64,000 bases of DNA from Aminicella lysinilytica (GTDB lineage: Bacteria; Bacillota; Clostridia; Peptostreptococcales; Anaerovoracaceae): contig NZ_SNXO01000009.1 in assembly GCF_004362975.1 (NCBI RefSeq), positions 1 to 64,000 of the forward strand, read 5' to 3'. How positions within the stretch are numbered: position 1 is the stretch's first letter; every line of letters begins with the position of its first letter. Made by a program: the position numbers and the translations under genes. Below the pieces are notes generated by a model that was given only the letters and a program-made list of their open reading frames with translations, did no database searches and was not told the DNA's origin. This document shows positions 19,778-47,490 of this stretch, piece by piece.

Positions 19778-20223
19778 TGTGAAAATGGCCCGCCCCCCTA
19801 AAACCGACCTGCCCCCAAATACTTACCCAGACCGGTTGGCTATTGTTCCATCAATGGTACCTTTATGCACAAGTTTATGCATCAACCTATTCATCTTCGC
19901 AAACCTTGATCAAAAACGTCCCTGCCGACTTGAGGCAGGGAGTGGCCACGCGGCCAGCGGACGGCCGTAGGCCTTGTAGCGCAAGCGTTTCAGGCGATGT
20001 AAGCATTTCAATTCGGCCCTGGTAGCCATAATTCAGGCCCACTTCAGGGTGCTTTTGCGCAATTTGGATGCCCATTTCCCATCACGATCCTAGACTTATA
20101 TGCAAAGTACAGCAACGAAAAAGTTGTTGGAGAATATTCTGGTGTTTGGAACATGAATATTCCCAAACCGGGCATAGCGGTCCAGAGCCCTTGGGGTAGG
20201 CTCGCCCGCGGATTGGAAGGAGT

Positions 20224-20330
20224 GGAATGTCCTCCGATACTGAGTTGAAAGTCCTCCACGCATTGGGGGGAATGTCCTCCGCGCATTGGGGCGAAAGTCC
20301 TCGCGCATTGGGGCGAAAGTCCTCCGCGCA
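20224..20330. repeat. 22-23 bp tandem repeat, about five units
   Basis: The unit is close to GAAAGTCCTCCGCGCATTGG with variable flanks. It runs directly into array A at 20327. It also generates a repetitive minus-strand open frame that I do not call a gene. Confidence 0.8.
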
Positions 20331-20680
20331 CGTATTGGCCCAATATACGGAACGATAGTGCGTATTTTATATTATTGTAAACCAAACTCGCACTTATTGG
20401 CTGAATCAAATAGGTCGAGGTGCGCGTCAATGGATGTTTTACCCATTATTTCCATTATATGGCTGCATATCATAACTTAAACGCACTTCTGTTCCTTTAA
20501 AAAAGTGGATAAGTGCGCGGATAATTGTTGGAATTCCAATATGCGCACCTCCATGTTCTGAGAATGGCTGATAAGTGCGGAAATGAAAATTGGAATACCA
20601 AAAACGCACCTTGATTCCTTGATAAGAGGCTATAAGTGCGCAGACGCACTTATAGGTCCAAATCGTTGAGAAAAGGTGCG
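20327..20680 (+). repeat. 36/26 module, copy A (six 36-nt units)
   Basis: The units are at 20327-20362, 20389-20424, 20482-20517, 20544-20579, 20605-20640 and 20645-20680. Each is exactly 36 nt, starts CGCAC and ends GTGCG. Spacers are 26, 57, 26, 25 and 4 nt. Inner bases favour CGCACNTAT and ATANGTGCG. Half-sites therefore alternate in orientation about every 31 bp, with the 57-nt gap equal to one skipped site. See copies B and C. Confidence 0.9.
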
Positions 20681-20746
20681 GGCAACATTTCTAGGCAACA
20701 TTTCTAGGCAACATATCTAGGTAACATGTCTAGAAACATGTCTAGA
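20681..20746. repeat. 13-bp tandem repeat, about five units
   Basis: GGCAACATTTCTA repeats with progressive divergence directly after array A. Confidence 0.85.
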
Positions 20747-20852
20747 AAAACAGGTACATTCCGATAGCCAGAACTATGCATAAACTTATGCATAAAGGTA
20801 CCATTGATGGAACAATAGACAACCTGCCGAACCAACCTTTCGCCACAGCCCC

Positions 20853-30865: not shown

Positions 30866-31036
30866 GCAGTTATTCGGCTGACCTGGTCTTTGCCCCCACA
30901 CTCGCCTTAACCGGGATTTTCCCGAGGACTTACATCTAGAATACGCCATGCTCGCCGGGGCTCTCTGCCCCGGTTTACGTGGATCCCTTTGCCCGTATCT
31001 GGCATGGATTTTCAACCACAGACCCGAATAACTGCC
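30866..31036 (-). ncRNA. raiA noncoding RNA
   Basis: This is a structured RNA of about 170 nt with its own promoter. The ends GCAGTTATTCGG and CCGAATAACTGC form a perfect 12-bp closing stem. Inside are a strong CCGGGGC/GCCCCGG hairpin, a CGGGAAAATCCCG hairpin and a CATGCC / GCATGG pairing. The position, after comFC and before hpf (raiA), is diagnostic for the raiA motif. That RNA is known from Clostridia and Actinobacteria and has been linked to sporulation and aggregation. The identification rests on position and fold. The main alternative is 6S RNA; a cobalamin riboswitch is less likely given the neighbours. Confidence 0.8.
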
Positions 31037-36157: not shown

Positions 36158-36184
36158 ATTTCCTCACTCCATATACTAATCTGT

Positions 36185-36298
36185 GCCGGCGCTTTCATGC
36201 GCGGCCGGCACTTTCATGCGCGGCCGGCGCTTTCATGAGCGGCCGGCGCTTTCATGCGCGGCCGGCGCTTTCATGAGCGGCCGGCGCTTTCATGCGCG
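36185..36298. repeat. 19-bp tandem repeat, six units
   Basis: GCCGGCGCTTTCATGCGCG repeats six times with G/A and C/A variants. It lies directly upstream of yhaM. Confidence 0.9.
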
Positions 36299-36782
36299 GC
36301 CGGCGGCGCGGCTCGCCACCGTGCGCTGCTTGCTCCGTCTGGCATTCCGCCGTGCTCCGCACTCGGCCGGCGCGCCGTGGCTCGCCACCGTGCGCTGCAT
36401 TTTGCGTCACTGTAAATATTATAGCATAAAAAAAAGTGTAATGCTACAGAAATAATTGGGAAATTATGGAATTTATTATATGTCCCTGCCAGAGAGCGGC
36501 CGCGGGCGCTGTGCTTTCGCGCCGAGGCTGGCCGCGGGCGCTGTGCGCTGCGCAGCTGATCATATTTTCGGTGCGCTGCGCCTCTTCGCCGCGCAGCTGA
36601 TGTGTTTTATGATAAATCGCGATTTTTCTCTTTTAAATACGAATTTTGATTCGTAGTATCAAACCATGCATAATTATCCGATGATTATACACGTTCCTTG
36701 ATTGTAGACCAAACAACCGCCAACTGATTGTACGTACGCCAGTACAAAGAGTATCCTCAAGACCTTGATGTGGCTCATTATC

Positions 36783-37632: not shown

Positions 37633-38125
37633 CTATCGTTCCACCAATGGTACAGTTATGCATAAACATATTCATCTTAGCAAACCTTAACCAAAAACGT
37701 CCCTGCCGAATTGAGGCAGGGAGTGGCCACGCGGCCAGCGGACGGCCAGCGGCCTATTTGCAACGCCTGCGTGAATCTGCTGCCAGCACCAGATGCGATC
37801 CCCATCATCATAAGACATCTCAAGACATCATAAGACATCATAAGACATCATAAGACATCTCAAAGCATTACATATAGCGCCGGAAAATATACTCAACGCC
37901 ATATTTGCGATAACGGAAATGTTCTCCGATCATTTTTCCGCATCTGGAAATTTGTAGGTACTGTGGTTTCAAATGACTTAGTTGGTGCAGGTACGGGTGG
38001 CGATGTTCTACATGCCAGCAATTCCAATAAGTCTGGCAATATGGCAGGCCGGGAGATCCGGGCTGGCGCACCCATGGAGTCTATGCATGATTTCATGCAT
38101 GATCGTTCCATTGGTGGAACAATAG
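37633..38125. mobile_element. 493-bp noncoding element with inverted ends (element 2)
   Basis: 37633-37650 (CTATCGTTCCACCAATGG) and the complement of 38108-38125 (CTATTGTTCCACCAATGG) form the ends. TTATGCAT-type blocks lie inside both. About 100 bp next to the left end (37661-37765) matches element 1 (19886-19986), including the CCCTGCC/GGCAGGG hairpin and GGCCACGCGGCCAGCGGACG. It contains no gene. Confidence 0.6.
37811..37860. repeat. 10-bp tandem repeat, five units
   Basis: TAAGACATCA repeats five times with an exact 10-bp period inside element 2. Confidence 0.9.
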
Positions 38126-42161: not shown

Positions 42162-42936
42162 GACCGGGGCCGACCAGGCCGCAACAATGACTGACCAGGC
42201 CGCAACAAGTTGCGGCCGCCGGCCTGACGCCGACTCTGCGGGTTGCGGCCGTCGGCCTGACGCGGACTCTACAGGTTGCGGCCGTCGGCCTGACGCCGAC
42301 AGCCTGCGCCGGGCCCTACTCCTTTACGCCGTGACCGACCGGCACTGGCTGCATGGCGAAACTTTGTACTCCCAAGTAGAAAACACCCTGCGCGGCGGAG
42401 CCACCTTCATGCAGCTCCGTGAAAAAGCGCTTGACTACGACAACTTCCTAGCCGAAGCCAAAGACCTGCAAAGACTGTGCAGGAGCTACAGAGTACCTTT
42501 TGTTATAAACGACAATGTAGACATCGCCCTTGCCATGGACGCCGACGGAGTCCACGTGGGCCAAAACGACATGGAAGCCGGCGACGTGCGGGCGAAACTG
42601 GGACCGGGAAAAATTCTTGGAGTCTCGGCAGAAACCGTGGAAGAAGCCGTCCTGGCGGAAAAGCGGGGCGCGGACTACCTGGGCGTGGGAACAGTTTTCC
42701 CGACGAGATCCAAAGACGACGCCATACCAGTGAGCCACGAAACGCTCACCGCAATCTGCGACGCGGTCAGTATTCCGGTCATCGCAATCGGAGGCATAAC
42801 CCTGTCGAATGCCGGTGAACTGGCGGGCAGCGGCATCTGCGGCATCGCAGTAATCAGCGCCATATTCGGGCAGCCGGATATCGAGGCGGCGACTGCTTGG
42901 TTGCTAGAAGCGACCCGGGAAATGATCGGGAAATAA
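42148..42936 (+). CDS. thiE: Thiamine-phosphate synthase with repeat-coded N-terminal extension
   Basis: ThiE joins hydroxymethylpyrimidine diphosphate and thiazole phosphate to thiamine phosphate. The core (LLLYAVTDRHWL onward) has GATFMQLREK, FVINDNVDIALA, DGVHVGQ and IAIGGI. The first about 50 residues are unusual: three 11-residue repeats CGRRPDADS(A/T)G coded by a 33-bp tandem repeat (42211-42302), preceded by a short DQAAT repeat. They are not part of the known fold. The ATG at 42148 overlaps thiM; GAAGG lies upstream. Confidence 0.93.
   Translation: MRSSKTGADQAATMTDQAATSCGRRPDADSAGCGRRPDADSTGCGRRPDADSLRRALLLYAVTDRHWLHGETLYSQVENTLRGGATFMQLREKALDYDNFLAEAKDLQRLCRSYRVPFVINDNVDIALAMDADGVHVGQNDMEAGDVRAKLGPGKILGVSAETVEEAVLAEKRGADYLGVGTVFPTRSKDDAIPVSHETLTAICDAVSIPVIAIGGITLSNAGELAGSGICGIAVISAIFGQPDIEAATAWLLEATREMIGK
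42211..42302. repeat. 33-bp tandem repeat inside the 5' end of thiE
   Basis: Nearly three copies of a TGCGGCCGCCGGCCTGACGC unit run in frame. The same GC-rich vocabulary recurs at the 3' ends of thiD and cytX. Confidence 0.85.
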
Positions 42937-43051: not shown

Positions 43052-43405
43052 CGCACGGATTGGGCTAATATCGGAGACGATAGTGCGGATTTTTCATTAT
43101 TGTAAACCAAATTCGCACTTATCGGTTCAATCTGATAGGTCAAGGTGCGCAGCACTGGTGGCGAGATCCATAATTAGTAATTAATGGAAGAGAATTGAGT
43201 TCTAAACGCACTTTTTTCCCTCTCAAATAGCTGATACGTGCGCGGGTAATCGTTGGAATTCCAATATGCGCACCTCCATGCTCTGAGAACGGGAAATAAG
43301 TGCGGAAATACAATTGGGATCTGCCAAAATGCACCTTTGTTCCTCGATAAAGGGTAATACGTGCGTGCTCGCACTTATACGACCAAATGGCAGCAAGGAG
43401 GTGCG
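43052..43405 (+). repeat. 36/26 module, copy B (six 36-nt units)
   Basis: The first unit is 43052-43087 and the last ends at 43405. Unit length (36) and spacers (26, 57, 26, 25, 4) are the same as copy A, although the sequence between half-sites has diverged widely, especially in units 3 and 5 and in the 57-nt gap. Unit 5 begins TGCAC instead of CGCAC. It lies between thiE and thiD. Confidence 0.9.
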
Positions 43406-43462
43406 CGGCCAAGATTGGGAATCTGGCGGACTCGTAACGAGGAATCCGGCGGACTCGCTACG

Positions 43463-43797
43463 CGCAAGAATTGGCCTGAAACGATAGGCATTGTGGCGCG
43501 CTACCGAATATCAATGGGAGTAAACGCAAGAATCAGGGAAATTTCAGGGGCACTGTGGCGCGTAGGCAAATTTCTACGGTGACAGACGCAAGGTTCAGGG
43601 AAATTCCAAAGGCATTGTGGCGCGCAACCATTGGAATTGCAATCATGGAAGCCTGTATACGCCACACCGAGACTGTTTTGAGCCCGATCCTTGCGCGGAA
43701 CCAGATACAGAAAGACTACCCCGCCACACAGAAGCCTTTTTGAGCCTGATTCTTGCGCGCAGGCACTTATGCGACCAAATGGCAGTAAGGAGGTGCG
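43463..43797 (+). repeat. 36/26 module, variant copy B2
   Basis: The units are at 43463-43498, 43525-43560, 43587-43622, 43660-43695, 43722-43757 and 43762-43797, all 36 nt. Spacers are 26, 26, 37, 26 and 4. Units 1-3 run CGCAA...GTGGCG. Units 4-5 are inverted (CGCCAC...TTGCG). Unit 6 is nearly the same as unit 6 of copy B. It therefore has the same geometry but a changed half-site. Confidence 0.8.
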
Positions 43798-43949
43798 CGG
43801 CCAACCGGCCAACAGCCTTGCGCCCCGGCATCCCGACCAACCAGCCAGCGCAACCCAGTCCAACAACTACATAACAAGCTATCACAAATCCGCGGCGGAT
43901 CTGGGGGCACCACTCCCGTCGCAATACAAAATTAATGTTAGGAGACAAC

Positions 43950-46134: not shown

Positions 46135-46489
46135 CGCACCTCTATCTATTAAATTAGGTCGATACGTGCGCTCGCGCACGTATCGACTCATATTTTTTAT
46201 AAATAGTGCACTTAGGTCAAAAAATTCTGGCCTCCGCGCACGTATCTGGGATTCTCAGAGCATGGAGGTGCGCATATTGGAATTACAACAATTTCCTGCG
46301 CACGTATCAGCTATTTGAGAGGACAAAAAGTGCGTTTAGTCCTCAATTTTCTTCCATATATTACTATTTATGGTCGCTACTACCAGTACCGCGCACCTTG
46401 ACCTCTTCAATCAATCCAATACGTGCGATTTTGGTTTACAATAATAATTAATTCGCACCATCGTCCCTGATATTTGCCCAATACGTGCG
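46135..46489 (-). repeat. 36/26 module, copy C (six 36-nt units, inverted)
   Basis: Read on the minus strand, unit 1 is 46454-46489 and unit 6 is 46135-46170. Spacers are 26, 57, 26, 26 and 4. Unit 4 shares TCTCAGAGCATGGAGGTGCG (this strand) with copies A and B. Unit 5 has the same TGCAC first half-site as copy B. Copies B and C are inverted repeats around thiD-cytX. Confidence 0.9.
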
Positions 46490-47167: not shown

Positions 47168-47238
47168 TAGGCTATGTAAATAATGTGTGTCACCGCGTAC
47201 ATAATGCGTACATAATAGCCTCACATTTACATAGGCTA
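47168..47238. repeat. Inverted repeat overlapping element 3
   Basis: TAGGCTATGTAAAT (47168-47181) pairs with ATTTACATAGGCTA (47225-47238), 13 of 14 bases. The right arm runs into the left end of element 3. Confidence 0.6.
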
Positions 47239-47490
47239 TCGTTCCATCAATGGTACGTTACATACATTACTATTCTCTATACTCTCACGTTTATATGCAA
47301 GTTACGACAACCAAATTGTTATTCAAGCATTTTTTCGTTGCGCTAACTCTGCCGAAATGCCCTTGCATTTCTGGTAGTTTCTAAGGATTTCTAAAATATC
47401 TCGCCTCGTAATCGTTGCAATCACTCATTCACGAACAAAAAACAGCTATGCATATTTCTATGCATAACTGTACCATTGATGGAACAATAC
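47236..47490. mobile_element. 255-bp noncoding element with inverted ends (element 3)
   Basis: The left end (CTATCGTTCCATCAATGGTA) and the complement of 47471-47490 (GTATTGTTCCATCAATGGTA) match elements 1 and 2. TATGCATA blocks lie inside the right end. The interior is gene-free and shares a short TATATGCAA segment with element 1. Confidence 0.55.

Follow-up and report, generated by a model that had tools for sequence, protein, structure and literature searches.

Dispersed gene-less arrays of 36-bp units with half-sites about 31 bp apart in the genome of Aminicella lysinilytica

The stretch of DNA analyzed here, hereafter the window, covers positions 1 to 64,000 of contig C9 (NZ_SNXO01000009.1) in the draft genome of Aminicella lysinilytica (2.29 Mb, 91 contigs). 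The gap between thiE and thiD holds two adjoining repeat arrays, B and B2, which differ in their half-sites. B elements also lie elsewhere in the window, one of them within a transposon-like element of a family termed TIR-C. The features are as follows.

19840..20818, no strand assigned: TIR-C transposon-like element that contains the B element at 20327, with terminal inverted repeats of about 44 nt
20327..20680, plus strand: B element within the TIR-C element
43052..43405, plus strand: B element adjoining B2 (two forward units, 57-nt centre, three reversed units, 4 nt, one forward unit)
43418..43463, no strand assigned: left border of B2, two tandem repeats of 23 nt
43463..43498, plus strand: B2 unit 1, forward, CGCAA...GTGGCG
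43525..43560, plus strand: B2 unit 2, forward
43587..43622, plus strand: B2 unit 3, forward
43623..43659, no strand assigned: B2 mirror centre of 37 nt, the same length in 10 of 10 B2 copies measured
43660..43695, minus strand: B2 unit 4, reversed, CGCCAC...TTGCG
43722..43757, minus strand: B2 unit 5, reversed
43762..43797, plus strand: unit 6, B type, GGCAC...GTGCG, preceded by a 4-nt gap
46135..46489, minus strand: B element

The initial annotation described B2 as six 36-nt units at 43463-43797 separated by 26, 26, 37, 26 and 4 nt, and re-measurement returned exactly these values. The ends it gave (CGCAA and GTGGCG, with units 4 and 5 inverted relative to units 1-3) were confirmed, five of the six units being of this type. 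Unit 6 is instead of the CGCAC/GTGCG type and starts with GGCAC, one mismatch away from CGCAC; its proposed similarity to unit 6 of the B copy amounts to 88% identity over 56 nt, including the flank CGGCCAA. Relative to a complete sister on contig C24, the window copy is missing one 62-nt module of the reversed arm.

Several other repeats and structured elements were observed in the window. The 5' part of the thiE-like gene contains 33-nt repeats (42191-42300; GRRPDADS repeats), and 19-nt tandem repeats of GCCGGCGCTTTCATGCGCG are present in six to seven copies at 36184-36317. Upstream of thiD, a hairpin-like motif at 43893-43921 (GCGGCGGATC-GGGGGCACCAC-CCGTCGC) is kept in congeners G002, G008, G003 and G014 with stem changes, and had no Rfam match up to an E value of 1. 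A raiA RNA lies at 30869-31032 on the minus strand, and a group II intron match at 28-93 on the plus strand.

B2 is a family. The pattern CGCAA-N25-GTGGCG-N26-CGCAA matches the genome 18 times, compared with 0 for the reversed control, and about 10 more copies or fragments lie elsewhere in the genome with a plan of three forward units, a 37-nt centre and three reversed units. Complete copies occur on contigs C24, C13, C23, C55, C10 and C1 and span 356-357 nt, except that the C24 copy, the closest relative of the window copy, spans 397 nt and carries an extra 4 nt and a B-type unit. Partial copies are found on C38, C9 (near 65.1 kb) and C7 as well as in the window. The ends of full copies are inverted, with a CGCAAGAAT-like start and a ATTCTTGCG-like finish. 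Across ten copies, 45 of 47 gaps are canonical, the remaining two measuring 25 rather than 26 nt. The lack of further B2 copies, or free drift of the spacing in relatives, had been named as what would speak against the initial reading; this genome has further copies, whose spacing shows no drift, and the relatives examined all lack the element. Grouped by eye, unit interiors split B2 into three subfamilies, and CGCAAGAATC and TGTGGCG are kept throughout. In two TIR-C elements (C5:59118-59612 and C10:47106-47526), minimal cores were recognized by eye in which a single unit flanks the centre on either side; over 112 nt, the core on C5 and the full array on C55 are 99% identical. It thus seems that arrays grow or shrink by 62-nt modules while the centre stays fixed. 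DNA searches of the draft assembly with both B and B2 returned gene-less copies only.

Matches to B were found at 33 places, including one 27-nt remnant and several that are cut off at contig ends, so that 33 may slightly overstate the number of copies; B thus occupies about 30 places. All 22 full copies share the plan of the element at 43052..43405 and measure 354-357 nt. The B half-sites, CGCACKTAT and AGGTGCG, are intact in 248 of 264 instances, and in the alignment of the 22 copies column identity is 98.8% in half-sites, 77.2% elsewhere and 72.1% in other G/C columns. None of 10,000 random draws of block sets reached this conservation. None of the gap columns touches a half-site: they lie in spacers, elsewhere outside or, for a single copy each, in the interiors of two units. 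Parts of two spacers (TTATTGTAAACCAAA; AATCGTTGGAATTCCAATATG) are almost as conserved as the half-sites. Some truncated B copies abut insertion-sequence ends in or near unit 3, and two insertion-sequence-like ends (GGTCAAGTCCATATTTGTGTGTAAATT; GTCCGTATAATGGTGTAAAAG) recur in or near this unit (contig ends at L099, L086, L092, L079 and L101). Similarity among B copies correlates weakly from part to part (0.28-0.35), which fits recombination between copies, a process that itself homogenizes sequence.

Aligned by eye and without a statistical test, B and B2 units match gap-free over all 36 nt, and from this alignment B2 reads as a drifted sister site of B rather than an unrelated site. The initial annotation held that spacing is what is selected. 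Spacing is indeed common to the two half-site types and to three B2 subfamilies with unlike interiors, but the claim is too narrow, since in either family no columns are better conserved than the letters of the half-sites, with parts of two B spacers close behind. The combination of differing letters and constant spacing suggests a protein assembly that reads distance plus sequence.

Neighboring half-sites lie 30-32 bp apart throughout, about three turns of the helix. Across the two centres the distance is 43 and 62 bp, likewise close to whole turns, and the tight pair is separated by 9 bp. At 10.5 bp per turn, separations of 31, 43, 62 and 9 bp correspond to 2.95, 4.10, 5.90 and 0.86 turns. 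The same period emerged from a scan that assumed no half-site sequence, covering 373 kb in stretches picked because copies are present: alternating inverted 5-mers occurred 105 times at 31 bp and at most 4 times elsewhere, and direct 5-mer triples 124 times at 62 bp and at most 10 times at other distances. The scan gave neither the 31-bp nor the 62-bp peak in about 665 kb sampled from five congeners; apparent arrays in congener G013 were runs of N and were rejected. A regular unit length by itself is no proof of protein phasing. The interval of about 31 bp recurs both within and between units, which favors phasing, because phasing predicts equal intervals and folding does not.

Elements occupy about 40 places along 2.3 Mb. 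They are intergenic, lie between divergent genes in only 3 of 29 cases, and are flanked by genes that share no function in Pfam scans. The thiE-thiD gap that holds B and B2 is 1002 nt long here versus 109, 110, 120 and 37 nt in four congeners; in two more, another gene occupies this position. These lengths make an insertion in this lineage the best reading of the B-B2 pair. Neither family was found in 16 congeners. The B2 pattern had no match in 393 other genomes of the order, and B was absent from 60 relatives by pattern search and from the 16 congeners by DNA search. A B profile revealed no arrays in 296 genomes of the family, where it gave two weak matches only. Weak matches in congener G008 were dismissed as coding sequence, and a 61-nt direct period in that genome looked CRISPR-like. 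A B-pattern search of 85,000 species genomes gave four matches, located in Curvibacter, Pseudonocardia and an uncultured beta-proteobacterium, which were taken as chance on account of their number. A virus or plasmid origin was rejected because B had no match in IMG/VR or in plasmids and B2 had none in phages; the 29 matches of the B2 pattern in IMG/VR are all isolated units without arrays, about the chance number by our own estimate.

Several B and B2 copies are bracketed by TIR-C ends (CTATYGTTCCATCAATGGTAC...), and other copies lie outside TIR-C. In one homologous pair of TIR-C elements, identity is 98.3% in the B array, which has 0 gaps, and 89.3% in the rest, which has 7 gap openings; two further comparisons gave 80% for the array and 67-70% for the rest. 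The two members of this pair are near-identical in the left arm and the B array, but strongly unlike in about 110 nt of tandem repeats to the left of the array and about 80 nt to its right. Tandem repeats border many copies and could stem from replication stalling at a bound array. Inspection by eye revealed no short direct repeat at array edges that would mark a target-site duplication, and tandem repeats alter these borders. Two TIR-C elements in the window are array-less (37633-38125, with 10-nt tandem repeats of CATCATAAGA, and 47236-47490).

B2 can be read as gene-less, dispersed and non-autonomous DNA in which a duplex array of half-sites, phased at about 31 bp, is bound by a multimeric protein, a reading that we regard as evenly balanced between right and wrong. 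Each directional 36-bp unit has two unequal half-sites (CGCAAGAATC and TGTGGCG) and recurs every 62 bp, with three units per side facing the 37-nt centre in mirror symmetry. Subunits of a sequence-specific multimeric DNA-binding protein would each take one half-site, all on the same face of the DNA, and assemble next to one another, such that a change in spacing would break the complex and interior letters would be free to vary. The most likely candidate for this protein is a transposase or recombinase whose autonomous element has been lost or has escaped recognition. The elements would have spread between genes as non-autonomous DNA, several of them inside TIR-C, and would have exchanged segments, and the two half-site types may reflect two diverged versions of the binding protein. 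The anatomy of the arrays, their number, their pattern of conservation, the empty site in congeners and the missing covariation in B are observed; that a protein binds, multimerizes, mobilizes the element and comes in two versions is inferred. A broader proposal, tentative and somewhat unlikely, is that these elements represent a mobile class with a spacing-coded array: half-sites three turns apart, a polymerizing protein, two co-diverged alphabets, and a bound array that turns its borders into hot spots of tandem duplication.

DNA searches, together with Pfam scans of the flanking genes, yielded no cognate binding protein, and so none of the paralogous binding proteins suggested in the initial annotation, nor any transposase or autonomous copy with array ends. 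A weak profile match in genome G450 (E 0.004, in one of 297 genomes) has a single spacer-like motif that precedes an IS66-type transposase. IS66 was rejected as the mobilizer, as the IS66 copies of A. lysinilytica itself have unrelated ends. A TIR-C element at C7:7827-9297 (L177:1335-2797) contains a single gene for a 433-aa protein with an N-terminal HTH (weak HTH_17 match) and, by eye, a possible LuxR-like HTH at the C-terminus. To call this protein the array binder would be speculation; it has a 23% identical relative on C24, and nothing ties it to the arrays. Between two B arrays of the same orientation on C25, a gene at L082:4921-5766 encodes a 282-aa PD-(D/E)XK-like protein with a C-terminal match to PADLOC PDC-S68; it was set aside as a partner, its relative sitting on C50, a contig without B or B2 matches.

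The main rival is a REPIN- or BIME-like single-stranded hairpin, in which forward half-sites pair with reversed ones around symmetric internal loops and which would be recognized by, for example, a Y1 (RAYT-like) transposase. We consider it unlikely. The complete mirror array on C55 is well folded as single-stranded DNA (z -6.2, with 0 of 100 shuffles as good), so that it may have a structural role, and mirrored half-sites of B are paired in the RNAalifold consensus; the elements are also dispersed, intergenic and species-restricted, as REPINs are (PMC3116915). However, the window copy, having lost a module, folds little better than shuffles (z -1.7) and yet keeps its half-sites intact, and none of its six units folds on its own (z -1.1 to +1.4), giving no REP-like hairpin per unit. 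RNAalifold detected no covariation on either strand of the 22 B copies (terms of -0.48 and -0.26 kcal/mol). In addition, the 57-nt centre of B and the 4-nt gap that comes later break the mirror symmetry, and a hairpin could do without a 31-bp step. Given the lack of covariation, the unfolded units and the scarcely folding window copy, a duplex array for a multimeric protein is preferred. An RNA element was likewise rejected, as B has no covariation and the elements match no Rfam family.

Decidedly improbable is the view that mobile elements spread the arrays as sites of a host protein (nucleoid, chromosome-structuring or regulatory), which were subsequently retained for a cellular role. Half-sites kept in diverged copies, regular phasing and the many intergenic places are consistent with it, but the arrays are absent from 16 of 16 congeners examined, where intergenic gaps are short, the neighboring genes are without a common function, and some copies ride inside TIR-C elements. 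Very unlikely, finally, is that the arrays are decayed repeats of no present function whose regularity comes only from a few founders and gene conversion. Although mosaic-looking copies, very similar pairs and several truncated or insertion-sequence-interrupted copies would suit such decay, conversion or descent should preserve interiors equally, whereas half-sites stand at 98.8% and the rest at 77%, and the three B2 subfamilies share half-sites and spacing and not interiors.

Dispersed repeats in bacteria are usually attributed to hairpins or terminal repeats. In these arrays, which come in two site types, site identity and helical spacing persist from end to end in diverged copies. If the preferred protein assembly is real, it would allow a direct test of how specificity shifts jointly in the assembly and in its DNA sites. 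The arrays also provide a way to ask why borders change fast in otherwise near-identical copies.

Among known systems, BIMEs and REPINs resemble the array in having short units in both orientations, many intergenic copies, several types per genome and clusters; the array is itself intergenic and multicopy, with inverted units. The difference is that its units form no REP-like hairpin alone and that its half-sites recur at 31 bp over about 355 bp. The CRISPR likeness lies in 36-nt units with 26-nt gaps, close to repeat and spacer lengths. A CRISPR array was rejected, as the units here are directional and degenerate, with those of one arm reversed, and B spacers are conserved and shared between copies rather than unique. 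MITEs are likewise short, gene-less and multicopy with inverted outer ends; several copies lie within TIR-C with its inverted ends, and thiE-thiD offers an insertion against an empty site. Unlike in MITEs, the whole array length, and not the ends alone, consists of repeated sites; no autonomous partner was found, and no target duplication was recognized. The pneumococcal BOX, RUP and SPRITE elements are small dispersed repeats nearly confined to a species and a close relative and judged parasitic (PMC3049150), a comparably narrow species range; BOX, however, is taken to act via extensive RNA secondary structure, whereas B lacks covariation and the elements here match no Rfam family. In the ends of the hAT element Hermes, several short sites at set positions are bound by a multimeric transposase (PMC10368747), although that system is eukaryotic and its sites cluster towards the element ends. 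The Hermes site GTGGC was an earlier proposal, AAGT being given now (PMC10368747), and its resemblance to GTGGCG is treated as coincidence.
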